Assembly: GCA_037176885.1 (NCBI GenBank)
Contig: JAWWNJ010000112.1
Span: forward strand, 744,001 to 808,000
From: Favolaschia claudopus
Lineage: Eukaryota > Basidiomycota > Agaricomycetes > Agaricales > Mycenaceae
DNA length: 64,000 nucleotides
Direction: 5' to 3'
Every line of letters starts with the position of its first letter. Position 1 is the first letter of the stretch. The notes beneath the pieces are model-generated. The model searched no databases and was not told the DNA's origin. It saw only the letters and a program-made list of their open reading frames with translations. Of the stretch, positions 33,363-64,000 are shown one piece after another. The position numbers and the translations under genes were made by a program.

Positions 33363-36300
33363 ATGACCTCCGCTGCCGCTCCTGCTCCCGCCAAGGACTG
33401 GTACCGTGCCCTCCGCCGCCTTTCGAGTGACGAGTTCCGCGACCTCAAGCAAATCGCTATCCCCGCTGTGGCCAAGCAGCAAGACTCCGCCAACCTTTTC
33501 AGGTTCCTCAACAACATCCGGGCTATTATGGTAGGTCCCCGCTGCTGCTAGTCGGCGGCGGCTCCCTCTGATCGTCCGTTTTCTTTAGACAGACTCGCGG
33601 GCCAGGCTGGGCGATCTTCGCGGCTGCCCGCCGTGGCTGATCGCCCTCCACTATTCCCTTCGGACCGCTGTGAACCTCGCCGACCCGGGCCAAGACTACC
33701 CCCAGCTCAGGGAGATGCTGTTGACAAGATCGGAGATCCTCCACTTCGGCTGCCCGGTGAGCAACTTGTTCTCTTTCTTTCTAGTTCTTGGCTGACCCGT
33801 CCGCTCGTTGTTGCAGGACACATATTTGCGTGACTTTACGGACGTCAACGCGTCAAAGCAGCTGCCCGGCGTACCCTCGCTCGCCCCGCCCGCAGCGCCT
33901 CCTCAGACGCCTAAGGTCACTCCAGTATCTGACCACCCAGCGGGGTCCAAGTCGCGGAAGCCAGTCCCCGCCAAGGCGTCTTCGTCGTCCTCCTTGCAGG
34001 GTCCAGCGCAACCCGGCCCTTCTGCGTCCACCAAGTCCAACAAGGTAAGTCGAGTATGCCAGATCCACCGCCGGGCCCGAACTAAACTGGTTCTGATTTT
34101 TCAGGGCGGCGGCGGGCCTCGTTACGGTGCCATCCCCAAGGAAGTCCCTCAAGTCGTTATCATCACGCCGGCGCCCGCAAGCGGTCCGAAGCGCAAAGCC
34201 CCCGATACCCCCGCTGAGGACGAAGAGCCTAAAGGCAAGAAGGGCAAGGTAAGCCCCGCTGCCAGTAAAGCCCCTTTGTTTCTCGACTCAGGCCTTTTCA
34301 CTAGCCCGCCAAGGCACCGGCTTCGGAAGGTATCTTCAATATTTATCAGTTCCTTTGCGAACATAACGAACGCGCCCGCTCAGGCCACGACTCCGACATC
34401 GAGGTGATCGAGACCAAGGACGCCCCCAAGGCCCCGGTGGCTAGTTCGAGCCGTAAAGGTACCGTCCCCGAGCTAACCGTTCTTTCCTTAACTTTCTTAT
34501 TCCTACCAACAGCCGCCCCCGCTACCAAGACCGTCAAGACCGGCACGAAGACGCCGCTCCCCATTTCTGCTTCGGTGGCGGTTAGGGACGTGTCAGAGGC
34601 CATGCTCATCCAGAGCATCCTTCGCTCGGAGGACATCGTCCCCGTCAAGACCAAGATAAGTTTTCTTTCTTTGTTTCCCCCTTGTAGCCGCTAGGCTGAC
34701 TTCTTTGCTTACAGCGGGGTTGCCCACAGTCAGACTTTGAACCTGCGCTCTCACCCCCGCCGTAACCGTCTGCCAGAAGAAGCCGGCTTCGTCCAGCCCA
34801 ACAAGGGCGTTCTCCACCAATTTCTCAGCATGCTGCCGGCCGCCATTCGCGAAGACCTTCCCTTCGACGAGGAAACCAACCGCTATGTCATCACAGACGA
34901 TTGGATTCGCCAAATGCTGAACTTGTCGCGCCCGCAGGTGAGTTCTCTTAGCCACTCTCCCGCTAACTCAACTTGACGCCTTTCATTCCAGGTCGGCCCC
35001 CGATGCACCAACTGCCTCAGTTTCGGCAGTACTTGTGTCATCGAGGGCACTCCCGCCATGTGTCGCGGCTGCCGCCAGAAGAAAACGACCAACAGCTGCT
35101 CGCTGCTCATGAGCGGTGAAGTCTTGGGCGCGCTAGGACCCGAGGTCCTTCGTTACGCTGACATGTCCAACGCGGGTGAGTTTTCCAAATTTCTTGGTTC
35201 CCGCCTGGACCTCTTTCTAATAATCTTTCAATTCCAAGGTTGGAAGGAGAAGATGGAGAACGCGATGGCCCTTGGCCGTGTTGCCGCCGACGCCAATACC
35301 GCCGCTATTCGTGCCAACTCGGAGTACCAGTACGGTCTCCTTCAACTCCTTCTGGTGATCCTCAAGACCCGCCGCTCGCTGACTTACGAGGAGTTCTTGG
35401 ATCGGTTTGCCGGGGACGACGAGGCTGAGTGCGACTTCCTCATGGAAGTCACGCTCAAGTTGGCGATGGCTCAATCGCTGACCGCCGAGTCCGACCTTCA
35501 CCGTGGTTGGGTTTGGCACGCGGTCTCTTACGACGATCTCCGCTCCCCGCTGCCGACTCCCTTCAAGTCTGCCTGGGATTTCTACAAAGCCGTCGACAAT
35601 CGCGAGCTCAATGACCACTACGGCTTCTTCCTCATCCCCGCCCTTGCCGACAAAGAGGGCAAGGCGCAGTGGGTCGAAGTCAAAGTGAGTTTCACCATTT
35701 CTAATCCTTTCTAGTTCTAATTCGTCAACACCCGCCAGGCCGACGACTGCCTCGACGTCCTTTTGGACGACAAGAAGTTGCCAGCGGGCGTGTCGGACGT
35801 GAAACTGCGCAATCGCCTCGCCCGTGAACTTCAGCAGTTCGAAGGCCTCACAGTTCCCGAGAAGACCGCCGACGGGCGGCCCCACCCCTTCAAAGTTCTT
35901 CGCGATACGCCCGGATTTTTGGGCAAGCTCAAGAAGCTCGGCCAGGTGACCGACATTCCCGATGTCGCAGAGCCAAAGCCCGCTCCCGCCAAGAAGAAAT
36001 CTCGCAAGAACAAGAAGGTGCCGGTCAGCAAGCCCACCGTCGAGTCCGACGGGGAATACGAGCCGCCGGTCGAGGCTCCCGCCCCCAAGACTCCAACCGC
36101 AGCTTCCGAGGTCGAGGAGGAGGACGAAGACTCTGAAGAGTCAACCGACCGTGAGTGACTTTAGCACTCCTCTTTCTTTCAATTACTTATTTCTCTTTCT
36201 AGCTGAAGACCGCTTCCCGCCAGCCCCTGAAATGTCTGCCAAGAGGGCCGGGAAGCAAAAAGCCGTAGAGCCCGTCGACAGTGCCGGCGAGGAGGAAGCT

Positions 36301-36426
36301 GACCAGGATGCCGCCGGCGAAGACGACGTCCCCGAATCGGGCATCATCGACTTGGGAGAGGAGGATGACATGGCCCCTAGTTCTTGGGGAATGCCGCCGC
36401 CTCCGTTCGATGGCGCAGCGTCTTGA
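33363..36426 (+). CDS. Antisense auxiliary gene A1: large six-cysteine cluster protein
   Basis: Starts MTSAAAPAPAKDW and runs through about eleven exons to FDGAAS at 36426. The first exons (33363-33530, 33589-33756, 33817-34044, 34105-34248) fit exactly in frame with GT-AG introns. Layout: helical N-terminus, Ala/Pro/Ser-rich basic linker (SGPKRKAPDTP, KGKKGK), then the exon 34992-35175 with CTNC...C...CRGC...C (spacing CX2CX6CX8CX2CX8C), an all-helical region (residues of exon from 35239), a Lys-rich patch PAKKKSRKNKK and an acidic tail. The cysteine spacing fits the Zn2Cys6 rule, though the first loop lacks the usual basic residues. One junction at 34655/34656 has AAG|ATAAGT instead of GTAAGT, so either the donor is mutated or the model is wrong there. 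Function unknown; a DNA-binding nuclear protein is inferred. Confidence 0.72.
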
Positions 36427-37241
36427 AGGTAAGGCCCCCCACCTACTCTCTTTTCGTCCGTCTCACTGACTACTTCATAGCTTGTCGGCGGCCACCTTCT
36501 TCAGTCGGGCGGGGAGGTAAATCTCCCCCTTTCTTAATCCTTTCTCTTCAATTCCTGACAAGTGCTTTTCCCGCCAGAAGATTGTTTCATCGTGGGGGCC
36601 GAGCGGCCCCCAAAAATATATTATTCGCTAAACGTATCGCAGGGTCCGGGTCCCTTCAACCCGATTGCAAATGGTTTCGTGTGCGCGGTGCAGCCTGGCA
36701 GAACATTCGGTTCTGCCCGCTGCACCCTTCAAAAATAAAAATATTCTTTCCATAGTATATAGCAGCATGTGCCGGCCAAAGAGCCGATGAAATAAAAGCT
36801 TTTGAATTGCGCTGCTCTTTCTTGTGTGAAAATCTTTAAGTTCCTTCTGAGTTTCTGAGTCAAGTCCCCGCCGCGAGCTTTCTTAAGTATTGAGTTAAGA
36901 GTCCGAGCTAGGGAATTTCGACAAAGTACCGCGCCCGTCGGCTGGATACGACTTAGAGAGCGGGTTGAACACAGAACGTCAAGTTTTTCAACATGCCGAG
37001 CGGCATCAACGCTTATCACCGTTCTTCATCTTCTAGCGGGGATTGCCCGCGGCTTCTCTTCTGACTATCAGCGGCTGTCCTCGGGCTCCACCGGGTGGCT
37101 AGTTCCTCATTCCTCCCGCTGGTCTCGTAAGAGTGATAACGTAGAGTAGGACTGGCCCGGCGGCCCGAGCTGCCCGCTACCGTACTTGTATAGTTGATAG
37201 GGGTAGATAGCCAATCAAACCATCTTTTTCCTTCAATCGTC
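36427..37241. other. Spacer between A1 and A2 with a further pyrimidine tract
   Basis: No coding region is supported. At 36513-36533 an inverted repeat GGGGAGGTAAATCTCCCC contains another copy of the CTCCCCCTTTC tract seen next to the LTR, here with no separate tetraloop hairpin. The rest is the probable 3' UTR of A1 and the promoter of A2 (a weak TATAGTT near 37188). Confidence 0.45.
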
Positions 37242-37984
37242 ATGCCTCAGCCCATAGGTGAAGTCTTAATCGACTACCATTGCTTCCCGGTGGTCAGTCA
37301 AGACTTTGTGCGCAAGATCTATACTGTGGTAGGCTGTCCTCGCCACATTTCTGCGCCAAGTCCGACCAGCCGCTAGCCAAATCTCGTCTGCACGCCTTGC
37401 AGTGACGCCGGCGAAGACTGTGAATTTCTTCACTGGGGCTCAAAGTGCACTCGGTGCCGGGAGGCGAAGGTCCCTAAATGCCTGTTCGCCGGGGTGGATT
37501 GGTTCAAATATACCTATCCGTCTTCGACCTTTCCGACACTTTTCATCTATCGCAGCGGTAAGTCCTGCCGCTCTTCGAATTCTCATCTTCCTTATTCTAT
37601 TCAGGCGGCACTTTGTACGACCTTGCATTCCTCGAACTCTGGTACCACTTGCGCCTCGGCGGCTTAAGCCCCGATATGTTTATAGGCTCGGTGGACGGTG
37701 AGCCCGCTGACTTCTTGCGTCGGCGGGAGGAATTTGCTGGCGACCTTCGTGACTGGGACATTGCTCACGACCTAAACCACGCCGCTCACTCCAGCCGGCG
37801 GCTGTATTTCTACAACATCCTATCTCGAGTTTTACGCGAGTGGCGTACCCAGGATCGCTCGATCCATGCCCAGTGCGACGTCGACGCAGCTATCCTGCTC
37901 CATGATATCAGGCGACGGGACTCTGATGTTCCGACCGTCGTGCCCTTGGCCCAAGGCACGCGCCGCCAGACCTTCGAGCGGTAA
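37242..37984 (+). CDS. Antisense auxiliary gene A2: small six-cysteine cluster protein
   Basis: Three exons, 37242-37328, 37377-37557 and 37605-37984, give exactly 215 codons plus stop with canonical GT-AG introns in phases 0 and 1. Exon 2 opens PNLVCTPC and carries CX2CX6CX8CX2CX7C with HWGSKC between the two halves. Exon 3 is helical and charged (LRDWDIAHDLNHAAH). No signal peptide or membrane segment. The same three-exon plan with the cluster in exon 2 is seen in A3, A4 and B3. I infer a small DNA- or RNA-binding protein encoded against the sense of the retroelement; no known family is recognised beyond the Zn2Cys6-like spacing. Confidence 0.75.
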
Positions 37985-38157
37985 CCCAGGCTAGTAGCTT
38001 TTCCCCGTTAGGGTCAAATAAATCTCTTTGCCCGGTCGCAAGCCGTTATCGTGATGTCTGATTCCTTCTGAGCTTTTTGGTCCGGCAGCCGGTGGTACTC
38101 ACCCGTCGGCTATAGGTTTTACTTATAGCGGCCGGTGCCCAGTGAGTCCTTCGAGCG

Positions 38158-38829
38158 ATGCCCGCCTTTTCTTTGGCAGCGACTTTTTACTCAGAACGCT
38201 TTAGGAGCTTCACCGGTCCCTCAGAGTACCAGCTCGTACTTCAAGCTCAGTTTGTGGGTCTTTCGTTCTTTCTCAGTGTTCTCCCGCTGACGGGTGCCTC
38301 TTCTTAGCCGGAGTATGAATGCCAGTGCTGCCTCAAGAACTACCGCCATTGCATCTGGATTCAGTGGGGTGAAGCCTGCCTCAGCTGCATGTTCATAGGC
38401 CGCGCCGCCTTGTGCTGCTACACTAAGAAGTCCGTCTGGCAGGCCGAGAACAGCCGTCGTCGCGACACTCTCCTAGCCTCTCGGCCAGGTAAGTCTGCTT
38501 TCTATCTTTATACCTCCCAGCGGGGGCCTTAGTGAATTTTAGCTCCCTCCGCCGGACGGATCGCTCAGTTTGACTGGTACGCCCGGGCTGCCGGTGCCCG
38601 ACTCGACGAGAAGAGGTACATTGACGTGCGTACTTGCACCATCCTCGCCGCCAGGTCCATGCTCGGCACCCTTGGGTTCGGCCAGCTACGCTTCTTGTAC
38701 GGACTGTGGTTTGACGCGAAGGGGGCGGGCGTACGAAAGGAAATTGTAGATCTCCTCCGGGATAGGTTAGACGCTGTAGCCCTCCAGTCCGGCGCAAGGC
38801 TCCCGCCCGTCATGTTCATCGGGCCGTAA
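38158..38829 (+). CDS. Antisense auxiliary gene A3: small six-cysteine cluster protein
   Basis: Exons 38158-38253, 38308-38488 and 38543-38829 give 187 codons plus stop; introns are canonical, phases 0 and 1. Exon 2 (181 nt, the same length as in A2) encodes PEYECQCC and the pattern CX2CX6CX8CX2CX8C with the QWGEAC core. Exon 3 is a helical domain (FDWYARAAGARLDEKRY, RKEIVDLLRDRLDAVAL). The exon-3 ending resembles that of A4 (VIRERLDVLANN), suggesting tandem duplication of an ancestral unit followed by strong divergence. Function unknown. Confidence 0.75.
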
Positions 38830-39112
38830 GCGTAGTAGGAAATATATTCCCACTGTCAAACGAACTTGCATCTTTAAAACTCTGTTTCAAGCTGCCCGAT
38901 TAGGAAGGCTTCTTAGAAACCAAAGCTTCCTCGTGTTTTTGCCCAGCGGGAGCTCAGCACCTCGTTGGATATTCCACATGTATTGCGGATCTTCCGGGAG
39001 CATCGGGTGCAATGAGTCCCGCTGTCGATCTTTCTGTTTCTGGGTCTCCCGCCAGGTCTCAGAGAGATATTTAAGCTGGCGGGAAGGTCCCATTTGCTTC
39101 AGTCGTCTACTC

Positions 39113-39741
39113 ATGTCTTTGCTGGAACATCCACTCTTCCCGAATGACCCCGTCGGCCCGCTCAGGGAGTACTATGTACGTTCCTGAACATTTTGCCTCG
39201 GGTAATTCCTCATCATTCGGCAGCCTGGCCGAGTATGCTCTGCGTGCCTCAACGCCCGTTCTCATTGCGAGTTTACTGAGTGGGGAGCGTCGTGCACCCG
39301 CTGTTACTTGCTGAAGCACAACTGCTCGTACACCCAGACCGCTGAGCTGGCCGATGAAATTGCTGCCCGCCGGCACCGTTTCAAAGAGGGTCCCGATCGT
39401 AAGTGACGACTTCTTTCTCATCTGTTGCGCCACAACTGATTCCCCGCTCGCTTCTAGCGGCTACGAAGGAACAGCTTGCTGCTTGGGATGTCCTTCACGA
39501 GGGGACCCTGGCGCAGTTCCCATTCTGGCAACAATACCATTCTGTAATCGTCGGGCGGAACGTCGCAGAGGCAGCCCAACGGCTGTCTTTTTACTTCGAG
39601 GCCCGCTTGGTTTTCCATCTTCTTCAGGAGGCCAAAACGGCTAATCTCCCGGCTGCGTATGTTGCTGTTATCCGCGAGCGGTTAGACGTTCTCGCCAATA
39701 ATCTTTTCCTGGATCTTCCGGCTAGGATGCGGGCAGTGTAG
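39113..39741 (+). CDS. Antisense auxiliary gene A4: small six-cysteine cluster protein
   Basis: Exons 39113-39175, 39224-39398 and 39458-39741 give 173 codons plus stop with canonical introns in phases 0 and 1. A TATTTAAG box lies 38 bp upstream of the ATG, so the leader is short. Exon 2 opens PGRVCSAC and carries the textbook spacing CX2CX6CX8CX2CX6C with TEWGASC in the middle. Exon 3 is helical (FPFWQQYHSVIVGRN, AAYVAVIRERLDVLAN). This is the cleanest example of the family in the window. Confidence 0.77.
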
Positions 39742-39871
39742 ATACAGGCACATGTACTTTCGGATAGTTCGTTCCGATAGCACACGCTCCCGCCCCATGT
39801 GAGGCCTTGGAAACATTTATTTCTTGGTAAAGATGTGCCCGCTGCCCTCAAATGACGTGCTAGGTGACCCA

Positions 39872-39910
39872 CCTCTCCCCCTTTCAGAAATCTCAACTGT
39901 CCCCAGTTGA
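39872..39910 (-). promoter_or_regulatory. Polypurine tract and tetraloop hairpin, copy 2 of element A
   Basis: CTCTCCCCCTTTC on the plus strand is followed by a perfect hairpin, TCAACTG (39893-39899), loop TCCC (39900-39903), CAGTTGA (39904-39910). Compared with copy 1 the loop-closing pair changed from C-G to G-C, a compensatory change. It sits about 250 bp upstream of gene A5. It could act as a central polypurine tract or as a promoter element for A5. Confidence 0.65.
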
Positions 39911-40161: not shown

Positions 40162-41402
40162 ATGTCTCAAAACGATTACAACACCGTCAAAGCCGATTTC
40201 CTCAAGGCTATGGACGTTGCCGCCAACCTCGTCAAGTACTCGCCGCCCGAGTCTCGTAAAAACCAGCTCAAGGACGTCGCCGAGATTCTCGTAAGAGCCG
40301 CCGGCTACATTGACCAGTCTCGTTTTGTTAACATTATTCTTTCGTTCGTAGGCGCGCCTTCCCCCGCTCATGCCTTTCATTTTGGAAGACAAGAGCGCGG
40401 TCCTTCGTGAGGCAATCTTCACCTCGCGTGAATATTACCACTCCTTGTACGACCCGGATGGTAAACGGGACGTGACCTTCCCCGCTGGGTACGATGCCCT
40501 GCGGCGGATCACCAAGGCCATTCACGAAGACCGCTCCAAGAAGGCGATCCCGCCCGTCTCCACCGTTTCTTCTTCCAAGGGGACCCGGGTCGGTTTCACT
40601 AACTTTTATTGTTGTGCCCACCATTGACTCACAATCATCCCCCGCTAGAAGAGTACTCGCGGGCGGTCTCAGGGTGAACCTGAGTCTGAGGACGAGGACG
40701 AAGGCACCGTTCGTGCTCCATCGCCCGCTCTCACCACCCTTGGTGCTGACGAGGTTCGTTCTTTCGTTTAACAACTGGCCTGTGTAGAGCTGACGATTGA
40801 CACTTCTATCATCGCCGTTGGGTGTTTGTTCACCCAGATGCTCGTTGACGATGAGCATGTCCCCGCTCCCAAGGCTCCCCCTACCGGTCCCAAGGCTAAA
40901 TCAGCCATGGCGGGCAAGAAGGGTGCGCGCGCTGTGAGTCGCACGTTATTTCTGCTTTAGCTTCTGTCATTTATTTCAATCTTTCAGCATAGCCCGGCCC
41001 CCGCTAAGAAGGGCAAGGGCAACAAGCGCGCCCGCATCGACAGCGTCCCGTTCCACGAGGACTCCTTCCTCACCCACGGTGAGTTTCCCGTCCATTGTCA
41101 GTGGTTTCCCGCTGAATGTTATTACAGCAACGGCTGAATTTTACGCTTCGGCACCCGCTTCAGGTGCTGTTGTCGACGAGGCCGCTAGCGTCGTTGAGAT
41201 GGGTACCGAGTTCATGAGCAACCACCTTGCCTTGCGCAAGCGGATGTATTTCATCATGGTCGAGCTGGCGGTCATCCACGAGAACCTTCGTAGTTCTCTG
41301 GCCCGGCGCGAGCAGCTCCTCGACGAAGGAGAGAAGATCTCGGCTCGCCTTCGCGACTTCCCCGAGTCTTCCTCTGCCGGCGTCGATGCTCATGTTCCCT
41401 GA
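40162..41402 (+). CDS. Antisense auxiliary gene A5: basic NKRAR protein
   Basis: Six exons (40162-40290, 40352-40588, 40649-40753, 40838-40933, 40988-41078, 41128-41402) add to exactly 310 codons plus stop. The N-terminal 120 residues are helical (DYNTVKADFLKAMDVAANL). The middle is disordered with acidic (EPESEDEDEG) and basic (KKGKGNKRARID) patches, a probable nuclear localisation signal. The last exon is a coiled-coil-like helix pair (ENLRSSLARREQLLDEGEKI). There is no cysteine cluster. The NKRAR motif followed by a phase-1 intron and a helical last exon is shared with B2 of element B, so the two are probably orthologous parts of the array. It is convergent with pol, with 222 bp between stop codons. 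Confidence 0.75.
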
Positions 41403-41624: not shown

Positions 41625-44600
41625 TCATTTCCGCGCAGCGGCTTTCGTGGCAGAACGAGTCTTCCGTTTGAAAGGCAGCGGCTCATCCGTGTCAGGTTCC
41701 TCTTCCTCTTCTTCTTCCTCGGGCAAGGCCTCCTGCAGAGCCGGCTCTTCGTCAGCCGTCCCGCTGGGGGTTAACCTCACATTCCCGAATTGGAAGTCAT
41801 CTCCAGAATAACTGTCTTCCTCCTGGACCATCTTTTCTAGCGTCTCTGCCGAGAGGTCGATTAAGTCGTGAATGTCAGCGGGCAGCTTGATAGAGCGCCG
41901 CTGCTCGAAGGGGACCACTCTGAACTGAGCAATCTTCGATTGAAAGACAGAGCCGTCCATCTCCGCTACGATATAACTTCCACCTTTCGTACGCCGGATG
42001 ATAATTACTGGTCCCAGGTATCTGGCGGCCATCTTCGTATTCAGCGATTTCTCAACGGTCGTATTCCTGATGAGCACCAAGTCTCCCGGCTCGAAATGGT
42101 AATCTTCGATAGTATGTTTATGTGCTATCTCGTACCGGCGCAGATTCGCTCGTTTCTCGTCGGTGACCCGTTCCCTCATCTGTTCGACGTGAGTGGCGTG
42201 CTTAGCCAGAGCCTGGGCTCGATAGCCGATTAACTCAGCGGTCGTTAGAGTCCTGCCGGGCAGATGCACTAGCCAAGTCGCTTCTTCTATATCCAGCGGG
42301 AGGATTGGATGTGCGCCCGTTACCATAAAGTAGGGTGAACAACCCGTTCCTCGTCGAATAGTGACCCGGTCAGCCCACAACATCTGCGGGAAGAACCAGT
42401 ACCACTTGCTGGGATTCCCGCCAGTAGCTTTCCATAAGGATTGCCTCATCGAGAAGTGCCCATTTTCGACTTTCCCGTTGGCTTGAGAATTATACGGCGA
42501 AACTCTAATATTTCTTATGCCGTATTTAGACTCAAGGTAGGCTACGGCCGCTAGGAAGGCCGGCGCATTATCTGTCACCAGTTCCTCCGGGCAACCCCAC
42601 CTACAAATCACATCTTCAAGTAAGAACAAGGCCAGCGTTCTGGCATTCTCGTTCTTTATCGGCCGCGCTTCTATGTAGCTGCTGAGAGAGCAGCGGGCGT
42701 CGACAATTTTATTGAAGCCGTTGGAAGGAGTACCAACGACCATCACATCGACGTGTACCACCTGGAAGAGCGAAGGGGTATGGGTGACAACGGGCGGGAT
42801 CTTTAATAAAGTCCTTTGCCTCAATTGACACAATTCGCAAGTCTTAATGTACCAGGTGACATCCCGCTCCATCTCAGGCCACCAGAAACGCATTTCTATC
42901 AAGGATTTGGTAGCAAAGACGCCGCGATGAGCTAGGCTATCATGAGCCGCTCGCATCATATACATTCGGTGTTCTTTGTCTACCACCAACTGATGTGCGC
43001 TCCCCGTTGTGGATTTATGATAGAGTTTTCCATCTGCATCCTCGAAGAAGCCGGTGGCGAATCGTAGGAAAGCTTTGTATTCCTTGTCGTTCATGCCATC
43101 CGGGCGAGCCAGGGTGTTTCGTCGCCATTCCTTCATGAGGAGCAGCCGCTCGTCCGCTAGCTTCGCCGCTACAGATCGTTGGTCTTCAGGATACGGTTCC
43201 CGCTTCGTCGGGTCGTATTTCAATTCGAGGTCAGGGATCAGCGGCTCGCCTGCTGGCTTGTCGTCACCCTTTGACTGAGAGAAGACTTCGAAAACATATT
43301 CTCTACTAAGGCGGGTGTAAGCCCAGGCCTGTTCGGCGTCGTTTTCGAAGTCAGCGGCTGACTGAGCCTCGTCCCCTGCCAATTCAGCTACCATATATCC
43401 ACCTCGGGTGTCAATATCGTGCTTGAAATCCTCGAAATTCTTGAGAGGCGGCCAAGCACTACTTTCAGGATGAAGACCCGGCGGCTCGTTATTATCGAAC
43501 TCGTCTTCTGGATGATCATACTCTGGATCCCCCGGCTGAACACGCCGGCGGGAGAGCCCATCTGGCCCGAAAGTCTTGCCCGGTACATGCTTCAGAGTAA
43601 AATGAAACATTAAGATCTCCTCGATCCAGCGGTTGATCGTAGCGTTGGGTCCCATTCCCGGGTGATCCAACATGCCTTTGAGGTACTGAGCGTCGGTTTC
43701 GACGACCAGTTTGCGGCAGCCCAACAGCCAATATTGCATGTGGTCCAGCGCCCTCTTCAAGCCAAACAATTCCCGCTTGGGCTGAGAATACCTCGACTCT
43801 CGTTCATTCAAAGGTATGGAGCTGAAGCGGGCATAGTACCGCTTATTTAGGTCCAAAGGATCCCGCTGGTACACATGCACTCCAACTCCAAGGTACGACG
43901 TATCAACCGCCAGCACCACTTCGGTGTCCCATTCATATCTTATAGGTCTAAGCGCGGGACATTCTCGCAAAGCCTTCTTCAAAACTTTCATGCAGGCGTC
44001 TTGGGGCGGGCCCCACTCGAATATGACTTCTTTCCGGGTAAGCTTCTGAATCGGTTCAGCCTTGACCGTGTAGTCTTGGATGAACATCCTCATAACGCCC
44101 ACAGTTCCCAGAAAGGCTTTCACATCGTGGAAATCCTTCAGCGGGCCCCATCGCTCAATGACGCCGATTCTATCTTCATCCGGGCGCATGCCCTCGTATG
44201 AGCAGACATGGCCGACCACCTTAAAGGTTCCCCGGCAAACCTGCAACTTCTTCCCGCTTACAGTCGCCCCAGAATAGGCTAGCCGGGTAAGTACCCGGTT
44301 GCAGTCTACCAAGTGTAACCACACAAAGACCCTTATCAGCGGGTTCTCTGGGATGGTCTCGTACGTCCCGTCAGGCTTCTCATATCGAGTGAAGCCGCCG
44401 GCGACAGGCACGTCATCTATATACGGCCGGGTAACCGCAGGAATTTCATCTCGCAGGATGTAGGTTACGTCTTCGTGGAAGATCGGCACCGAGTTGGTCC
44501 AACCCTGCGGCAATCTTACCAATCGAAGCGCCCCAAACGGAGTTTGGAAGGTCGTGTAATCTCGAGATTCCGGGTCAATCAGCCGGTGGTTGTACCCAGA

Positions 44601-46873: not shown

Positions 46874-46959
46874 TTTCTTTCCTGCGGGCGGGCGTGCTTG
46901 TCGGCTCTCCGGGGGCTTATCCGCAGGGGGTTTCCCCTTGGCCCCCTTCCTCGAACTCT

Positions 46960-48513
46960 CTAAAAATGCTCACCTTCGACGCTGTTCCCCGTTCGGGAAG
47001 GACCAGCCCCGTTGGAAGAGCGAGAGTTCGCTGAGACAGCCGCCAGCAGAATCGCAACAGCGTTGGCGTCGAATTGCGGCGGGGGAGATTGGCTTTGATG
47101 AGCCACAAGGGGTGGTTGAACACCCCCTGATCCATGCGACTGGAGTTGCGTCACTTGCCGCTGGAGGTTTACTTGCTCAGCTCGCAAGGAAACCAATTCT
47201 TCTTCTCTCGGGTCATAGTAGAATTCCTCGTTCTGGCTGAACGCGGCTTGCGCGGCTTCCAGCTCCTGCTCGTCCATGTCAAGAACGGAGAGCTGAGCGA
47301 AGACAGACTGGTAGTTTTGCGCAGCGGCCGTGGGTTGGGCGGCCGGGCGGTACTCCTCTACCTGCTGCTTCTTGGACTTGTGCCCGTCTTTCGGGATTGG
47401 TATCCCATCGGGGAAACAGTCTCTGAACCCTACGACCTTCATCTTTCCACTCCCTATGTGGGCTTGCCGAATGAGACACTTATCTCTAAAGTGCCCGAAC
47501 TTGTCGCAATAAAGACACCCCTGATCCGCCAGGTTCCCTTTGAATTGCACGGTTGGCATTCGCGGGAAAGACTGGGAGTCAGCGGCGCCTGGGACTCTGC
47601 CCGGTAGGGACTTATAGAAGGATTCCAACTCGGCCATCCTCTTCTTGGTCGCGGCGTCGATCTCTTTTAATTGGGAGGTCTGGTTATCCAGCCGCTCCAT
47701 CATAGTGACGACCGACACCTTAATCGTCTCAAGAAGGGACTTGTTAGGGTCCTCCTCTTCTTTCTTTACCGTCACGTTTGGGTGAGGTAGTATGGATCGC
47801 CCGCTCGACGCCTTTCCAGACCCGCTGGAGGTCTTGGACTTGCTCGAGTAACCCCGGTCAGAGGCGCCAAAGAACTCAGAGTTAGCGGTCGAGCGTTTTG
47901 CGATCCTTTTGGCTTCAGTCATGACCTCGGCCAGCGTCCATGTGCGGACCTCTGGCTCGTCAGCATCATCCCCGGCAGCGGGAGGTTTCCGCTCGAGGTT
48001 CTCCAGAATCCGTTCCTTGAACTCAGGACTCAACTTGGAGAAGAACATCGGGAGAGCCTCCCGGTGCGAAATTAATTTCGAATCGAGAAGCTTGTTCGCC
48101 TCGACGTTCATGACGCGCATTAGGCGCATGAGTTCGTCTTCATCATCCCGGTCGATCCCCTCTTCCGTGAACTTACGAAGCTGCCGGTGCAATTTCTGCA
48201 CAGAGCCCTTCTTTTGGTCGACTACGGACGGGTAATTTTCCAGGATTTCTTTCTTAAAGTCGTCGAACTTCTTAGAATACGAGGCGAATTGCCGCCACTC
48301 CTCGGCGGTTGCCTGAGCAGTATAGCGGCAGACAAACTCGTTCTTCTTATCATCCGGCGTCTCATCTAATTCCATCATACGCTCCACATGGTCCAGGAAA
48401 CGAACAAGCTCCTCCGGCTCTTCCTCTTTGAAGAGCGGGGCGTTCCTGTCCCATGGTTCCGGCGCGCGCTTCTTTCCTCGAACGACAGGGTTGTTGTTGC
48501 CGTCGTCAGCCAT
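46960..48513 (-). CDS. gag: Element A Gag with CCHC zinc knuckle
   Basis: 517 codons starting MADDGNNNPVVRG. The helical retrotransposon-gag domain occupies the first 250 residues (ELVRFLDHVERMMEL, AEEWRQFASYSKKFDDFKKE). A linker with basic and serine runs leads to the zinc knuckle CLYCDKFGHFRDKC (CX2CX4HX4C) near residue 355, then a Gln-rich tail. It forms the particle shell and binds element RNA. It is preceded by the leader 48514-49052. Confidence 0.88.
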   Translation of the reverse strand: MADDGNNNPVVRGKKRAPEPWDRNAPLFKEEEPEELVRFLDHVERMMELDETPDDKKNEFVCRYTAQATAEEWRQFASYSKKFDDFKKEILENYPSVVDQKKGSVQKLHRQLRKFTEEGIDRDDEDELMRLMRVMNVEANKLLDSKLISHREALPMFFSKLSPEFKERILENLERKPPAAGDDADEPEVRTWTLAEVMTEAKRIAKRSTANSEFFGASDRGYSSKSKTSSGSGKASSGRSILPHPNVTVKKEEEDPNKSLLETIKVSVVTMMERLDNQTSQLKEIDAATKKRMAELESFYKSLPGRVPGAADSQSFPRMPTVQFKGNLADQGCLYCDKFGHFRDKCLIRQAHIGSGKMKVVGFRDCFPDGIPIPKDGHKSKKQQVEEYRPAAQPTAAAQNYQSVFAQLSVLDMDEQELEAAQAAFSQNEEFYYDPREEELVSLRAEQVNLQRQVTQLQSHGSGGVQPPLVAHQSQSPPPQFDANAVAILLAAVSANSRSSNGAGPSRTGNSVEGEHF

Positions 48514-49052
48514 CGGATTGTTTGAAGGGGTTGGTGAAGTGTTGAGTAGTGGTGAAGAGACAGACGAAAGAGTCGTTGACGACTGGGTAGCTGCACCGTC
48601 GGGCGTAACAGGTCTTGTGCCGGCGGTTGAGTTGAGGTTTGTTGTTCCAGCGGAGCAGAGGGGCTCAACGACTGGGTTTGGCGGGTACGATAAGCGTGAG
48701 CTTGGGTTCGTCCGCGCAGAGAATAGAGTTCCCGGGCAAGAGCAACAGGCGGGCGGGAAGGATCGTCAGTCTCGAGATCGAGAGCAGCGGCAGCGGCACG
48801 TAGGCTAGTGTTGGTTGACCGAGGTTTTGGTGGTGGTGCTCTAGCGGATCGTCCTTCTGAAGCCACGTCTCCTCCGAAACTAAATGGCAAAATCTTCTAT
48901 AGCGGGCCTGGAGCTATTGGCTCAACGGGCGGGTGTATATTCTATTCTCGAGTCAACCGGCGGATGGTTCGTGCTAGGTTATAGCAGCGTCCACAAGCGA
49001 TTTCTTTCGACTTGACACAAATAATCTGTCACCCCTCGCGGTGGGCTCCAGA
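48514..49052 (-). promoter_or_regulatory. Leader of element A with primer-binding site
   Basis: Untranslated leader between the 5' LTR and gag. Directly inside the LTR end (GTTTCA on the minus strand) and after two bases (TC) comes TGGAGCCCACCGCGAGGG (49033-49050 reversed), a primer-binding site candidate because it starts TGG as the complement of a tRNA 3' CCA. The priming tRNA was not identified. Confidence 0.65.
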
Positions 49053-50045
49053 TGAAACGGTGCGTGTAGGTGTAGGCGTGAAATATACCGAAATATAAAA
49101 TCACAAAATCTAATCCAATACGACGTGTGTGTGTGTGTGTGTGTTCGGGGTGGCGGGAGCACGTATCGTCCCTCAGAATACTTGTGCAAGCTTCAATCAA
49201 TCAAGGTCGCTACGTTTGAGCGGGACGAACTACTAGATTGTCTAGCGAGAACGTAGCGGGCAAAACGATTCGCAGCGGGAGAAGCGAAGAGTCACTCTTT
49301 CTGAGACTTCGAAATGAGAAATTCTGAGTCTAGCGGGGAGGGTCTCCGTGCCAATAGAAAAGCGTCGCCCGGTAGTGGATCGTCAACCGGCAAGAAGCTT
49401 TCTGGATGACAACCGGCGGGCAGAAGGCGCGGCTCAGCGGGACGGGGTTCTTATACGACCGGCGCGGCTCTGGCGAGAAGCGGGGCTCTTATGTCGATGG
49501 CGCGGACACTAACAGTGACCCGGGCAGTTACACCACTACGCGGCGGCGAGCTCGAACGGGGGTCTTGGTTATACCGCGGAACGGCTGGCACACGGGGCGT
49601 CGACGGCGCGGAATCAAGCTCGAACGGGGGTCTTGGTTATACCGCGGAACGGCGAGAAACGGGGCTTCGTATTTCAGGAGGGCTCGGGCTCAAAGGCTGG
49701 CGGGGCTCTCAAAGTTCTGGCGGCTCGGTATGCCACAAGTCTTTCCGTATCACTCGAATCTCTCTCAGATATCAAGTCTAGTCTCTTTCAAAGTTCAATT
49801 CAAATTCTAGAGTCCGCTACAAACTGCCCTTGTCTACGGGTAGGTAATTGACTGAGTAACCAAAAGTACACCGGGAGATTAAATACATGCAGCGGGAGCA
49901 GAAACAACCAAATAAAATCATGATGAGAGAGTGTCAAAGAGTGATGCCGCGCCCGCTGGGAACCAATGGTATATTCAGGATTGCGAGTCGTGAGTGAAAA
50001 GACTGCCTCCCGGAGAAAGTCCATGCGGGCGGGTGGGTATCGCGC
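49053..50045 (-). repeat. 5' LTR of element A, outer part removed by element B
   Basis: 993 bp corresponding to 30824-31816 of the 3' LTR with the same open frames, (TG)n run and 36-bp duplicated unit. It stops abruptly at CGCGC (50041-50045), where the TGTAAC terminus of element B begins. The missing 843 bp should follow element B to the right of this window. Confidence 0.85.
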
Positions 50046-51844
50046 TGTAACGCTGACACTTGAATATATCAACTGAAGTGCTAAATATAGCGCAGCAGAG
50101 AATCTACCACCCAAAATATATATATAACACAATCAACCAACACACACAACACTACAACACAAATATCTCCACAAGATACACTCAAATGTCTCTCGAAGAG
50201 TTCGTGGGGTTCGATCCGAAATCCAGATGTCACAGTGACGAGGATATAAGTCGACTTGCAAGTAAAAAACCTTGCACAAAACACGCTCTCACACACCGTA
50301 GATGGAAGTGATTCCGTCCGCGGACCTTTCCTAAAAATAGGAACTATAAACGGTAGGATACAAGATACCCAACGCAGTTGAATATCAGGGCGAGATTGAA
50401 ACAGTGGCCACAGACAGTTTCCGCGGCAGAATGCACAATTCTTATAGCGCCAGTTACGCTATAGACCTGAACCTCCAAATTCCAGGAACCTTTGACACTC
50501 CTTTATATAGCACAAGCCTTTCAGACGAGGACTAATCAGATCTCTTCCGGTTATGCGCCAGCAGTCCCAACGCAATGCTTCAGCAGATGGACAGTTCCAC
50601 TCTTCCTCAGACTCAGGGAGATACTAGTTCACTCTCGAGCACACGTATCCTTACAATGAGATAGGCAGTCCGCGGGCAGTAGAGGCAGGCAGTTCCTAGC
50701 ACACTAAAGCCACGACAAAGCTACTCGAAAGCAAAGCCTCCGCGGGTGAACACTCTCGAAACGATGCTTAGATTCACACTTGAACTGAACTTCAACACAA
50801 TTTCTATTAAGACAAACGAGTAGACAATATCTTTATATATGCCTCTACGTTGCTGCCTGAGTTCACCAACGCTGTCCAATAGACTGAGCGCGATGTCCTC
50901 CAGCTCAACGAGAAATACAGGTCCTTTTATACTAATGCCAAGAAATACATCACATAAATAGTACAGAGTAAGCAATGTCGATCCAATTGAGTAGAGAGAT
51001 GGTATATTGGTATTTGGGTGTCCCGGCGGACCTCCGGCAGCCTCTTGGCTTGTCGATCCAACGGTAGAAAGTCAGCAATTATGACTCCCACGGTTGAATC
51101 ACTGAATTGCGGAAGCCCGCGGAACGCCATCATTGGTGATCCCGTCAATCCGTCACTGGCGGCAACCCTTCCGGTGGTGCCATCAACACCTCTAATAACT
51201 CCTAAGACTATTCTTGGGACATTCCAATTCACTCGCAATATCACAGGCTCGTCTGTTGTCCAATTTATCAAGCCACCAAGTCATCCGCGCTGACTCCAAT
51301 ATAGAAATAGATTTCTAATGAAGTTGCCGCACTTGTTCGGCTTCAGCATCACATCATCAACTCTCCTGTCAAAGACCTCATGTCTTGCCATAACTCTGCC
51401 TTCTGATCCTAGCACCGGCATCTCCTGTATGAAATCCCTTTCCGCTGTTCCAGCTGTCTATTTATAGTCGGCAGCCCGCGGCATCTGTCTTTTGACTGAT
51501 GTTGACTCTGATAGCCCCCGCGGCGCCTCCTACATCCTTGTAGACCCTTGTCTAAGTCCGTAGTACACAAGTACTTGACTCTTCGTCACTCTTCTGAGGG
51601 TTCTGTTATGGAACAGATCCATAGTACTGCAGTAGGCTATTATTATAATGCCTTTCTCCTGTAATGGGTTTTACGGTCAACAGCTCGGAGCTCACTTTGA
51701 CCCTCCTTAGTGTCACCAACAGAGGTACTGACTTCCTATTGATAGTCGAGTAAGACTATAGTCGTGGCGGGTAGTTGGGTTGTTTAGGGCCGCACTTGAC
51801 TTAAAATAGCCAGATATAACGCGCAAAAATGGCCAGTCGTTACA
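50046..51844 (-). repeat. 3' LTR of element B (1,799 bp)
   Basis: Termini TGTAAC and GTTACA form a 6-bp inverted repeat with the expected TG...CA ends, and the pyrimidine complement of a polypurine tract follows directly. It carries seven CCGCGG hexamers and AT-rich stretches. No convincing coding region. The partner LTR is outside the window, so the ends rest on the terminal motif and the tract only. Confidence 0.75.
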
Positions 51845-52679: not shown

Positions 52680-54586
52680 ATGCCCGTTAAGAAGGCCACT
52701 ACTGCACCCACTCGTCGCTCTACCCGCAAGATCACCATGGCTTCTACTAAGCGTCCGCGCAAGACTAAAGCCGGTGCTAAAGTGGGCCCTGGCCGTTCCT
52801 CCGTCGTCGTCCCCAAGGACGTCGAGCCAGACCTTCCCGAATCAGAAGAGTCAGCGGCGTCGACCCCAGAGCCCCCCGCGCCTTCTTCCTCTCGCAAAAT
52901 CAAGTCTCCACCCGCGGAGGAGCCTGTCGTCGTCGTTGCTGGGCCTTCGATTCGTTCAGCACTGTTTGAACCGCCGCCGCAGATCCCCTCTGACGATCCT
53001 TCTGCTGTTTTCTGGGCTCCATTCGACAATTCTTTCGCGCGCGACCTGATTCCGCTTTTTATCCACAAGCCGCCGCCGCCGTCGGTCGAGCAGGTCCGTA
53101 GTTTAGCGTTATTGACTCCAGTCCTCGTGCGTGAAGATCTCTTTCTTTGTCAACTAAATGCTCATTATCCTTTTTTAGTCCCCGTATCGTCGTGAACACC
53201 CCACCGTGCCTTTGAATGTCGAGGCATTCTTGTGGGCCCTCGCTCGCGCTGCTCGCCATATCGCCAAAACTATCCCCGACGTCGACGCCGCGGAGGAGTT
53301 GATCGCACTCTACCGCGATCTTCGTCCCTCCTCTGAAATCCAGGATACCATTCTCGCCGCGGACCCGCTAGGCAAGCATTACGGTGCGGGGTTCTGCGTC
53401 CCCAGCATTGTCACCGTGCCTACACGAAAGCCCCGGGCTCCCGTTTTCTCTGATAGCGAAGATTCAGACGCTGAGGAGCCGCCTGCGAAACGTCCGCGCA
53501 TGGCCATCTCTCCTTCACCTGGGCGCTCGCCGACTCCAGCTCCCGCGTCTGAGCGTTCTGCGACCCCAGTGGGGCCCGTCTTCGACATTACCACTCGCGC
53601 TCAGCTCATCAATATGTTCTTTGACATTCCCGAGACCGGTAAGTCTGGAGGTTCTGTTCTCTTCGTACAATGGCTCATCTTTGGTTTCTTTTATTCCAGG
53701 TATGCCTTCTCCAGCGCATATGAAGATCCCTACGTCCTACGTCCAGACGTCCCTGGTGCCGCCCATGCTGTCCAAGATCGCCTTTCCCTGTCTGAATTGC
53801 GTTCTCAACTACGCCGAATGCAGGCCCGTCGGGGGTCGTTCGTCCGTCTGCACTCGCTGCGCGGACCGCAAGCATCAGTGTTCTCACAACTGGACGCCTC
53901 TTGAATTCAAGCGGTTTGCTGAGTGCATGCGACCCTTCATCGCGGTAGCTCCCCACACCATCGCCGCCGCACTTCAGCGTCTTGTGCAGGCGTACGAGGA
54001 TGCTCAGTTCGCGAGTTTCGCCCACGTCCGTGCTCTCAACAATCTCCGCTTGCAAGCGCAAGATTCCGCCCTTACGATCTCCGGTGCGGAGCGTTCTCTC
54101 GCCGTCGAGCAGTTCAACGACTTCTTTGTGGATAAAGAAGGCGCGGACCTGGCTCGCGACTTTGTGGCGCACGTCTTGTCGCAGAAGCCGTTCTATGAGT
54201 TGGAACGAGACTTCGTTGCTCACGAGGCTACCTCCGGCGCAATCCCAGTAACGAACGCAGCGGGCGACATCGAGAGCTACACCTATCAACCCAAGTTCTC
54301 CGCTCGTCTCATCCCCGATTTGGATCTCCAGGGCGTCTTGAAGACGGTGGATCCTAAACTCGGTCCCGTCGCTTCTTTCGACGATCTTTCATCCGCGGGC
54401 CCTTCTTCGTCTAAGCTTGCCCCTGCAACTTCTACTCCTGCAGCCAAGCCATCCACCCCCCCGCCCACGTTTGGACCAGCGCCTTTGTTGGAGACTCCAG
54501 CTCCCAGTTCGTCAAAGGCTCGCCATGGGAAGGGAATCGCGACGCCCTCTTCGGTTGATAAGGGCAAGGGTGTTGACCGCAGCTGA
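52680..54586 (+). CDS. Antisense auxiliary gene B1: large six-cysteine cluster protein
   Basis: Exons 52680-53093, 53179-53638 and 53700-54586 give exactly 586 codons plus stop. The N-terminus is strongly basic (TRRSTRKITMASTKRPRKTK), followed by acidic/Pro-rich segments and a second basic patch PPAKRPRMAISP. The last exon opens with the cluster CLNC...C...CTRC...C (CX2CX6CX9CX2CX6C), then a helical domain (ECMRPFIAVAPHTIAAALQRLV). The tail is Ser/Thr/Pro-rich with SSKARHGKGIATPSS. Position next to the 3' LTR, size and layout match A1 of element A, although sequence similarity is low. A nuclear, probably nucleic-acid-binding role is inferred. Confidence 0.77.
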
Positions 54587-55646: not shown

Positions 55647-57343
55647 ATGGCACCACGCTCTGCGCTCATCGAAGCGTCCAACCTTATCCTTGAAGCTGAA
55701 CGCGACTTTCAACGGGTCGTTGCCCTCAGAGACTCTCTCCCTGCGGCTGTCATTCACTCTACGCTCAGCACGTTCGCAGCCGCGGCGGTTCGTCCATATT
55801 TTTGCATGCCCAAACGCTTTCCGCGCTAACTCTGTCTATTTTTAGTCGGACTTCAAGTTGTTCGCTCAGTCCCTTCAGCACCCCTCCAACGAGAAGGTCG
55901 TCAATGCTCTTACTGCCGCCTCCAACGCTATGAGGGACGAGTACAAGATCTCCAAGTTCAAGATCCCTACTTCCCAGCTTGGCGCTATCGACCGCATGCT
56001 CAACAACTACCACAACGCCAAGAATAGCAAGCGCGACAAGGCCGCGGCAGCCATCAAGGGCCACCGTGCTAAGGCTCAAGTTCAACAGGTGCTTTCTCGT
56101 GTTCGTCGCATGCCTCCTGGTCCTGAACTGTCCTCTATAATGCAGGGTAAGTCTGTTGAAGTCATCGACGATTCCGGGGACGACGACTCCGCGGAGGAAG
56201 CTTCCGTCGCTGATCAGGTATTCCTCAGACGTTACGAAGATTATCTATGGTATTAACCAACTCCAGATGGATCTCGACAAGGACGAAGGTAGAATCAACC
56301 CTCTCTATATCGCTGCCATGGGAGCCAACTATCGCGCAGGAGGCTCCTCTTTGCCCCCTGGTCTCTCCTTCCAGAAGAATAGTGCGCCCAAGGTCAAGAA
56401 CGACACTGTGCGTCTATTTTTATCCCTCTGCACTTTCCTCTTCATTCACCCAGATTTCCGTTTGTTCGTCTTGCTCTTCTCACCAGCACGGCCAGGACAA
56501 CTGCCCTGTCAAACCCAAGGACGGTATCCCTGCCGGTAAGGCTCCTCAAGACGACGGCAAATCCGTGCGCATCATTGACGATCCCGTTCCAGAGGACATG
56601 TTCAAAAATGTTCGTAAAGTTCCTGTGCGTTCGCCTTTTCACTTTGTTCTATTTTTATAACATCGTTTTATTAGGGCAAAGGCCCCAAGGCGAAGAACTC
56701 CGACACATCTTCCACTTGTCCTGACGAGGACGAGAAGGTACGTAACCCATATCCCACGGTTGAATTCTCGCTTAACGTTCATCAATTGTTGTAGATGGCG
56801 CCCGCGGAACCACTTATGGTGCGTGAAATATTCGTCAACTCTGTTTCTCTGCTTAATTCTCGCTCATAGCCTGCTTTGTCGTTGAACCCTGTGTCCAACC
56901 GCAGCAACAAGCGTGCCCGTACCGAACCGGATGATGTCGACCTCGACTACGAGCCCAAAGTCCCTGGTACGAGTTCATCTTCTCCTTGATCTAATTTCGT
57001 CTAAATTTTATTATAGACTCCATGGACAAGGACCTCATCGCCATCATGCATCCGGACGATGTCAACAAGACCTGGAAGGTTTCTCAGAACCAACTCAAGC
57101 ACTTGGACGCGCAAGGTTTCAAGGCTCGGGAGCGCTACCTCCGCCGCAACATGGCCCTCGCTTCCTTCAAGTATCGCTACTGGCTTCGCGCCTACGAGGA
57201 GATGGATGACCAGCTCGAGCAGCTCATGAAGATCCATCATGCCGACAACGAGGATCCCATTATGCGCCCTGCTAGTTCCGCGGTATGTCTCTGCGTTTAT
57301 TTTTATAGCTCTCCAGTTAAACCTTTCCGCCTTCTAGACTTGA
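55647..57343 (+). CDS. Antisense auxiliary gene B2: basic NKRAR protein
   Basis: Ten exons (55647-55787, 55846-56088, 56146-56217, 56267-56407, 56487-56624, 56675-56737, 56795-56818, 56870-56966, 57017-57282, 57338-57343) add to 396 codons plus stop, all with GT-AG introns; the seventh is a 24-nt micro-exon (MAPAEPLM). The N-terminal part is helical (SDFKLFAQSLQHPSNEKVV). The middle is alternately acidic and basic and includes SNKRARTEPDD. The phase-1 intron after that exon leads to a long helical exon (RNMALASFKYRYWLRAYEEMDD, here in part). Same motif-intron-helix order as A5. The final two-codon exon is the least certain part. Confidence 0.72.
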
Positions 57344-57928
57344 TCGTCCTTCCGCGGCCTATATACCTATGTGCCTTCGCTCTTTAGACACATAAACCGT
57401 CGACTCTCAGTGTTCCCTATCGTATCGTCGTGCGTTCAACCGCACATATTTGCTGTTCAACCAGCAACTGTCCAAATCCCCGGGTGTCTCGTATATACTT
57501 AGCAGTGCTTGCAATACAATTGTTTTGTCAAGCCAACTTCGTCCGATTTCCCACAGTGTCTTGGACATCCCAGGAGTGGTAAGACTCTTTTTCCGCGCTC
57601 AGAATTCTAAAAATAGAACTCCAATCGTCCAGTTCTACCTCAACTTCTCAAGTACTTCAAGCCGCCGCGGAAGCCTTTTTGTGAACGACTCCATTGCCGT
57701 GACCGCCTACATGCTCCTTGAAGCCCTTATTCCACTGGATATTTTGCGTCTCTAAGTCTGGGCAAGCCTAGACTTCAAGTCTCACTCCTTTACTTTCCTC
57801 CGTCCCGCTTATGATCAATACAAAATCTGATTCAAATAATCACAGGCAAGACATCTCCTCAGCAGTGTTTACTATTTAAACAGTGCCTCATAGGAACGTC
57901 TTCTCCCATAATACTCTTTCCTCTTTGC
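57344..57928. other. Spacer between B2 and B3
   Basis: Probable 3' UTR of B2 and promoter of B3. TATTTAAA at 57873-57880 lies 48 bp before the B3 start codon. A CCGCGG copy is at 57665 and a TCTAAAAATAGA segment near 57605. No coding region is supported. Confidence 0.45.
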
Positions 57929-58672
57929 ATGAGCATCCACGGCTTAGACGACGAAGAGAACGACGACTACTACGATTATCTCTACGACAGCCCCGACGAA
58001 ATGGATCCTGCCGCAGTCCTCGCAGCCTTCGCACGCGATATTATAGTCCCGGTCAGCGAGATCCTTCCCAAGTTTCAAGCTGCCATCTATCTTATGGAAG
58101 ATAATAAGGTGCGTCCTTAGTACTTGTTACTTTCAACTTCGACTGATCTATTTTCATCACCAGCCGACTGAACAGTGCTCTTGCTGCGCCAAGAAACACA
58201 ACGTCGAGCCTTGCGCTCCTACTAGTTGGGGTCCTCCTTGCCACAACTGTCTTATTCAATTCCATCCTTGCGACTTCACCAGCAAGGACAAGATGATTGA
58301 GAGTTGGAAGAAGCGCGGAGGTCCTGGTGCGTCCATTTATAGATGTCCAGACTTATCCCTCGCTAATCCTCCCCTTCAGCTATCATCTTCGGTCGCAGCA
58401 CCGTCGACCTGGAGACCATGCTTAACCAGCTTGACGAAGCTTTCGCTTACCACCATGAGTTTTCCATCAAGGCTCGCAAGGCCCAGTTCATCAAAGCGGT
58501 CAACAAGATCGATGATCTTCATGAACTCGCCTACATGCGCAAGGAACTCATCCTTCACGGCTACGACAACTCCGCTCTCGGCTTCGTCGAGCTTCGTATG
58601 TCCAAGCTCCTTCCTCCTGGCATCTCCATTCACTCCGTCGAATCGCCTGACAAGTACGATCTCCCATTTTAA
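57929..58672 (+). CDS. Antisense auxiliary gene B3: small six-cysteine cluster protein
   Basis: Exons 57929-58108, 58164-58326 and 58380-58672 give 211 codons plus stop, with intron phases 0 and 1 as in A2-A4. Exon 1 is acidic (DDEENDDYYDYLYDSPDE). Exon 2 opens PTEQCSCC and carries CX2CX8CX8CX2CX6C with TSWGPPC in the centre. Exon 3 is helical (LNQLDEAFAYHHEFSIKARK). The first-half spacing is two residues longer than the Zn2Cys6 norm. It is convergent with pol, stop codons 56 bp apart. Confidence 0.76.
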
Positions 58673-63953: not shown

Positions 63954-64000
63954 TCTTGTTCTTCGTGAACCTGATGACCCTTGGCCATGTTGCTCCTCTG

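Follow-up and report, generated by a model that had tools for sequence, protein, structure and literature searches.

The stretch of DNA analysed here, from the wood-decay fungus Favolaschia claudopus (the window: 64,000 nucleotides of contig JAWWNJ010000112.1, C112:744001-808000; the whole assembly has 264.6 Mb in 460 contigs), contains two recent Ty3/gypsy long terminal repeat (LTR) retrotransposons, A and B, members of two giant lineages of about 20 kb and about 18 kb. Both carry intron-bearing genes on the plus strand, opposite gag-pol and in the interval from pol to the 3' LTR, five in A (A1-A5) and three in B (B1-B3), as a first-pass annotation of this DNA had claimed. Six of the eight antisense genes encode a six-cysteine (Cys6) cluster with Zn2Cys6-like spacing, and each element is strewn with a hexamer of its own, RGCGGG in A and CCGCGG in B. 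We give an even chance to the proposal that the antisense zinc-cluster proteins bind the hexamer of their own element and thereby activate or un-silence that family only.

All eight gene models close in frame. The first-pass annotation had closed seven of them, with three to ten exons each; the exception, A1, closes through an AT-AC intron at 34656-34712 (ATAAGT...TTAC) and has 11 exons, the other models fitting the range. AT-AC ends are found at this site in all six copies scored (C57, C15, C153, C7, C16, C31), the deposited relatives P0001-P0005 have five differing stretches exactly there, and, judged by eye, the exon joins of P0001 match A1 elsewhere and those of P0008 match the corrected B1, whose first intron is 53127-53178. 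In A2, A3, A4 and B3 an intron pair of phase 0 and then phase 1 surrounds the Cys cluster. A simple gene finder trained on the B genes, at a threshold of 15, called A5 and most of A1 in A's block, both on the plus strand; it called nothing on the minus strand or in the reversed sequence and missed the Cys-rich A2-A4. The TATA-like boxes reported earlier are present as strings within 250 bp upstream of five of the eight start codons (A1, A4, A5, B2, B3), counted without a chance control.

The antisense genes are under purifying selection and travel with the elements. The ratio of non-synonymous to synonymous substitution rates (dN/dS), proposed in the first pass as a check, is well under 1 against the window copy for A1 (0.08, 0.09, 0.10, 0.10, 0.10 and 0.11 in six copies, with dS of 0.45-0.60) and for B1 (0.13 and 0.10 in two copies). 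It is 0.10-0.20 for A2, 0.03-0.22 for A3 and 0.15-0.22 for A4 in six copies and 0.08-0.15 for A5 in five, the values for A3-A5 being based on small numbers of differences, and 0.28 for B2 and 0.42 for B3 in one copy each, C69 being excluded as too diverged to align. These copies are not independent of each other, C7 and C153 being near-identical and C16 and C31 similar; the A5 sequence of C16 is only partial, and C364, which is allelic to the window locus or nearly duplicates it, was left out as an independent copy. In C57 the frames are intact, with a frame-changing indel in none of 26 exons, and 20 of 21 introns keep their dinucleotides, one being GT-AC. Against intactness we counted the decayed copy C31, with frame-changing indels in 15 exons, and C15, C153 and C7, each with at least one broken gene; B1 of C133, scored with the earlier exon model, has such an indel in one exon of three.

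Copies are numerous. Searched with its last exon alone, A4 gave at least 123 genome matches, 122 of them without a stop, and B3 at least 76, 75 of them without a stop, with four and two more matches, respectively, spanning an intron (150 candidates scored in each search). Insertions of both types at other loci have target duplications of their own: both ends could be read for A (ACGG), B (GCGC), an A-type element at C104 (GCGT) and a B-type element at C97 (GCGA), and one end only for C17 and C12. Array exons were found inside the C104 and C97 insertions, whose LTRs differ at 0 of 1833 and 0 of 1779 positions compared. The genome report (PMC10905254), on a 265 Mb Falcon assembly annotated with the help of short-read RNA-seq, gives 86.8% of BUSCO genes as duplicated; it follows that the assembly probably contains both haplotypes and that copies are overcounted. 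The A4 exon lies at an equal offset in C19, C66, C121 and C420, and telomere targeting was considered for it and rejected, the first 600 bases of these contigs being identical and non-telomeric; their shared starts are probably assembly re-use, which inflates the counts of identical copies. Protein searches with A1 (residues 300-700) and B1 (residues 95-490 of an earlier 586-aa model) returned six and four records, all from F. claudopus, and with A4 none; a match in such searches requires 5-residue words in common, and for A1 and B1 only about 8000 candidates were scored. A single scan of viral contigs gave no match.

The age of the array is indicated by a third element, found at C140; C155 and C447 hold stretches that resemble it. 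Beside its pol the third element has homologues of B1 (34% identity, E 3e-51), B2 (28-49%, 5e-22) and B3 (42-46%, 4e-34), in the order and orientation found in B. Since so diverged an element keeps the three genes in the same order, the array is old. The first-pass annotation had regarded the genes as long-term parts of the element lineages and had asked for further copies with the same array; the many copies, the purifying selection and the recurrence of B1-B2-B3 in the third element bear this out. Its further argument, that A and B share order, gene types and intron phases, survives in part. Both have the small zinc-cluster type, with a clear match between the proteins (82% probability), a large zinc-cluster type, with a weak match, and the intron pair of phases 0 and 1. 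Gene order is not shared, being large zinc-cluster, three small zinc-cluster and non-zinc in A and large zinc-cluster, non-zinc and small zinc-cluster in B; A1 has 11 exons and B1 three, and no similarity between A5 and B2 was detectable in protein comparison.

The persistence of introns had been explained by the copying of the other strand, and the three introns within our B2 query are indeed kept in 40 of the 40 copies scored, out of 82 first-look candidates. They would be kept because the genomic RNA that is copied is the opposite strand, in which antisense introns are not spliceable. The modules themselves may move between elements. In C57 and C15 the dN/dS of pol is 0.07 and 0.06 at a dS of 0.047 and 0.091, and the dS of A1 in the same copies is 0.45 and 0.54; because A1 is thus far more diverged than the pol of the same element, the comparison suggests module exchange by recombination. 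An A-type block at C60 combines an A1 that has diverged strongly (segments at 43-84% identity) with a closer A2 (95% over the last exon), which can be taken as a sign of such exchange.

A six-frame scan for the Cys6 pattern found nothing in window positions 1-29000 and six instances in 29001-74000, every one of them in the antisense genes. Zn2Cys6 proteins have the spacing CX2CX6CX5-12CX2CX6-8C and bind CGG triplets; A1, A2, A3, A4 and B1 fit this spacing. In Pfam the sole match for three of the six window segments is Zn_clus (E about 0.09, about 13 of 21 bits), and the remaining three have none; the B1 segment of the third element comes nearer to the cut-off of 21 bits, scoring 20.0 (E 7e-4), and the B3 segment of that element was not matched. 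Half of the eight PDB sequences listed (E of 10 or less) are Zn2Cys6 factors (two for LEU3, one each for LAC9 and PPR1), LEU3 being the top-ranked solved structure (E 0.37). As far as such comparisons go, the clusters are consistent with a Zn2Cys6-like fold, which is unproven.

Counted over one LTR plus the interior (18.2 kb for A, 16.3 kb for B), RGCGGG occurs 136 times in A, where a second-order Markov model expects 33 (maximum 49 in 100 runs), and nine times in B, where 14 are expected; CCGCGG occurs 47 times in B against 4.1 expected (maximum 11) and five times in A against 9. Both non-coding DNA (LTRs included) and coding DNA (antisense exons and gag-pol) hold the hexamers, and in A they are on both strands (79 and 57). 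The excess is also seen within codons. When synonymous codons were shuffled 500 times and the motif recounted, no shuffle reached the observed number in A pol (24 RGCGGG vs 7.5), B pol (12 CCGCGG vs 0.9), A1 (22 vs 11.3) or B1 in its earlier model (4 vs 0.8); the observed number was reached by 4 of 500 shuffles in A gag (8 vs 2.8), 16 in A protease (9 vs 4.7), 12 in A4 (4 vs 1.2), 22 in A5 (8 vs 4.6) and 13 in B2 (4 vs 1.3). Ranked among 2080 6-mers, CCGCGG is first in B pol, and CAGCGG and AGCGGG are first and second in A pol. Few of the single-base variants tested are clearly enriched, mainly GGCGGG, which is within the motif, and AGCGGC (43 vs 17). Spacing is slightly more even than random, with coefficients of variation of 0.86 and 0.74, equalled in evenness by 4.5% and 2.7% of uniform placements, and 5 of the 135 RGCGGG gaps in A are of 20 bp or less.

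The sites are also retained. In four A copies hexamers were kept above 6-mers of equal GC in 16 of 16 comparisons, some margins being slight (0.82 vs 0.78, 0.81 vs 0.78), and in two B copies in four of four, with small numbers; in C60 the retention is 32 of 47 against 0.47-0.51, with 51 sites in each sequence and 35 in common. Between C69 and B, over 6.4-6.5 kb at 66% identity, each has 18 CCGCGG and 5 of the 12 alignable sites are common. In the third element the turnover goes further: 1274 of 8685 bases of LTR plus array block can be aligned with B, holding 3 of B's 26 CCGCGG, and the third element has 28 in its 8795 bases, a density like that of B. The two pol genes, at 77% identity, have three sites in common, of 6 and 4, and in the pol open reading frame (ORF) of the third element 4 are observed where codon shuffles give 0.4, none of 500 reaching the observed number. 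Since density is preserved despite the turnover of positions, our reading is that the sites are under selection.

Other dispersed words were seen as well. Element B has a second enriched word, AAAAATAG, found 10 times where 0.6 is expected, three of the ten sites being in B introns. At C175 (positions 3870-15000 of the reversed stretch) another transposon is inside a copy of A1 and has its own dispersed word, GTGGCA/TGCCAC, found 62 times against 6 expected; its ORFs may be those of a KDZ-type DNA transposon.

From these data we propose the following mechanism. Inherited as a module that lies between pol and 3' LTR, the array has genes for one large and one to three small Zn2Cys6-like proteins and for a cluster-free partner, and its antisense orientation allows the introns to be kept, the genomic RNA being reverse-transcribed without spliceable versions of the genes. 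Once transcribed, the genes would give zinc-binding proteins that enter the nucleus and bind the CGG hexamer across their own element, RGCGGG for A and CCGCGG for B. There are two elements in one genome, two CGG words and differing zinc-cluster genes, and the simplest reading is therefore that the proteins of each family would recognise their own word. The likely effect would be activation of the family or its protection from silencing, the own family alone being addressed, as by VANC for VANDAL. To a wider version, a self-addressing control in which the array co-evolves with the hexamer of the family and families are switched on or shielded independently within one nucleus, we give slightly less than an even chance.

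A number of observations weigh against this proposal. No Cys6 segment reaches the curated Zn_clus cut-off of Pfam; whole A2, A3, A4 and B3 have no Zn_clus match at E up to 1, and among four relatives of A1 and B1 only P0009 has one, at E 1. B3 has X8 where X6 is expected between the second and third Cys, the PDB matches are non-significant (best E 0.37) with four unrelated chains on the same list, and the structure models of the A1 and B1 families are uninformative, with a predicted local distance difference test score (pLDDT) of 36 and 35. On the side of the hexamers, A2, A3 and B3 show no excess in codon shuffles, the B1-like gene of the third element has no clear one (4 vs 2.0, shuffle maximum 6), and CCGCGG is absent from B introns (0 in 748 bp). 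The pairing of protein with motif rests on two motif classes in the clade, the reader of the motif could be a host factor, and the motif could come from a mutational process. CpG observed/expected ratios close to 1 (A, 1.04; B, 1.01; B LTR, 0.85) do not clearly indicate a methylation-driven decay that would need to be counteracted.

It is possible, and in our opinion rather unlikely, that the array proteins serve the life cycle without binding the hexamers, for instance in nuclear import, RNA export, assembly or integration targeting, as suggested for the plant antisense ORF proteins, and that a host factor reads the hexamers or a mutational bias produces them. Binding of the motif by the array proteins is putative only, A5 and B2 have no Cys cluster, and the motif occurs in coding and non-coding DNA alike, when VANC motifs are mainly non-coding in the available text of PMC5735166. 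A host bias, however, leaves unexplained that the hexamers differ within one genome, each being at or below chance in the other element, and both words contain CGG, the triplet of Zn2Cys6 proteins. Should binding occur, the main alternative in outcome is self-repression, with the proteins as self-limiting repressors that restrain transcription of their own element or direct its silencing as a copy-number control. The same motif and protein evidence would serve it, and the RGCGGG density within A is highest in the LTR (12 per kb); high copy number and identical LTR pairs speak for recent activity instead, which is not decisive, and we regard repression as improbable.

The codon-level data bear on two further explanations. 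Antisense transcripts rather than proteins might act, double-stranded RNA formed with the genomic RNA regulating the element, as proposed for plant antisense ORFs in the text seen of PMC7264820; but A1 and B1 have dN/dS of about 0.1, and several copies keep their frames intact and their splice sites conserved, which shows that proteins are selected, so that RNA as the sole function is largely refuted and very improbable. That the genes are ORFs formed by chance, or host genes captured on a single occasion, could be supposed from the lack of any Pfam match at the curated cut-off in A2-A5, B2, B3 and the scanned relatives of A1 and B1; this is refuted by the selection, the many open-frame copies and the homologous array in a third lineage, and can hardly be believed.

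LTR retrotransposon antisense genes have been reported since the 1990s without a settled function, according to the text available of PMC7264820. For the plant elements Retand, Grande and RIRE2, that text and the accessible part of PMC11963269 describe single antisense ORFs in the stretch from pol to the 3' LTR, and A and B too have an antisense coding region in this position. The likeness extends to the opposite strand, conservation in the lineage and a suspected nuclear or DNA-binding role. The plant proteins, however, have TRP28 or other domains in the parts of these papers seen, when those of F. claudopus have Cys6 clusters and TRP28 (PF04195) was unmatched in A2-A5, B2, B3 and the relatives P0001, P0003, P0008 and P0009; the word "intron" is absent from both texts, and no element-wide hexamer is described for the plant elements in their visible text. 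Boty of Botrytis cinerea, as described in text citing it, is a fungal gypsy element with an antisense gene, brtn, between pol and the 3' LTR; it is alike in gene position, but has a single named gene where here there is an array. HTLV-1 HBZ and other retroviral antisense genes resemble the array, by description in the same part of PMC11963269, as antisense regulatory genes in a retroelement, each being a single gene.

A short motif that is specific to the family and enriched in the element coding for the proteins, as we found here, is also the feature of the Arabidopsis VANDAL/VANC system, where, in the text seen of PMC5735166, such a motif has accumulated in the element that encodes its binding protein. 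VANDAL is a DNA transposon with its motifs in tandem repeats, mainly non-coding; the F. claudopus hexamers are unlike them in being dispersed, spaced slightly more evenly than random and present also inside gag-pol codons. To the Gal4/Leu3-type Zn(II)2Cys6 proteins (PF00172) the array proteins are alike in six-Cys spacing, exact in five of six and near in B3, and in the CGG of the candidate sites; they differ in scores under the cut-off (best 20.0 of 21 bits) and in an unmatched fungal transcription factor middle domain.

What is new, then, is the intron-bearing array form of the antisense genes together with an element-wide hexamer, single antisense genes being known in plants and Boty. The first-pass annotation had known of no described class of this kind, which holds for multi-gene intron-bearing arrays in the literature searched. 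Neither these arrays nor element-wide hexamers in LTR elements were found in the literature searched, partly seen and including few subscription journals, where absence is no proof. An array with clear protein-level selection and a candidate DNA-binding motif, paired with an element-wide hexamer, is open to a direct binding test. If the proposal is true, LTR retrotransposons would have a sequence-specific self-recognition system, and their sequences a readable record of the co-evolution of a transposon protein with its address.

In structure, A and B are Ty3/gypsy LTR retrotransposons (Table 1). Their LTRs have TG..CA ends and 4-bp target duplications, and the LTR pairs are 100% identical over aligned stretches. 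B is inserted within the right-hand (5') LTR of A, and its own 5' LTR, at 66297-68095 outside the window, is identical to its 3' LTR. In the pol of A and of B alike, Pfam detects reverse transcriptase (RT), RNase H and integrase, RVT_1 being under the curated cut-off in both, and an aspartic protease match in A; the gag frames of A and B have a CCHC knuckle. The pol proteins are 57% identical in an alignment of 1178 residues. Primer-binding site and polypurine tract were assigned from position and sequence alone.

Table 1. Features of elements A and B in the window
Feature	Position	Strand	Remarks
A 3' LTR	30824..32659	-	1836 bp; target duplication 30820-30823; 22 RGCGGG sites
A polypurine tract region	32660..32675	-	by eye; adjoins LTR
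A1, large Cys6-cluster protein	33363..36426	+	831 aa, 11 exons; cluster CX2CX6CX8CX2CX8C
A2, small Cys6-cluster protein	37242..37984	+	215 aa, 3 exons; intron phases 0, 1
A3, small Cys6-cluster protein	38158..38829	+	187 aa, 3 exons; intron phases 0, 1
A4, small Cys6-cluster protein	39113..39741	+	173 aa, 3 exons; intron phases 0, 1
A5, charged, without Cys cluster	40162..41402	+	310 aa, 6 exons; no Pfam match
A pol (RT, RNase H, integrase H2C2)	41628..45878	-	
A aspartic protease frame	45713..46969	-	
A gag frame, CCHC knuckle	46963..48765	-	
A primer-binding site region	49035..49052	-	by position; same sequence precedes B 5' LTR
A 5' LTR, first 993 bp	49053..50045	-	rest of 1836 bp resumes beyond B
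B 3' LTR	50046..51844	-	1799 bp; target duplication GCGC
B1, large Cys6-cluster protein	52680..54586	+	597 aa, 3 exons (52680-53126, 53179-53638, 53700-54586)
B2, without Cys cluster	55647..57343	+	400 aa, 10 exons; last exon (6 nt) uncertain
B3, small Cys6-cluster protein	57929..58672	+	211 aa, 3 exons
B pol	58732..63189	-	
B frames upstream of pol	62955..64000	-	run past window end to 66220; CCHC knuckle there

A few minor features were noted around these elements. An A-type copy at C57 has within its pol an inserted A-type LTR, apparently a solo LTR, at 11560-13375 of the joined stretch. Within the window, an ORF with a Helitron helicase-like domain (29594-30826) adjoins element A, and a host-like gene on the minus strand at 12800-15211 has a CLP1 P-loop domain and one of NOL9 type.

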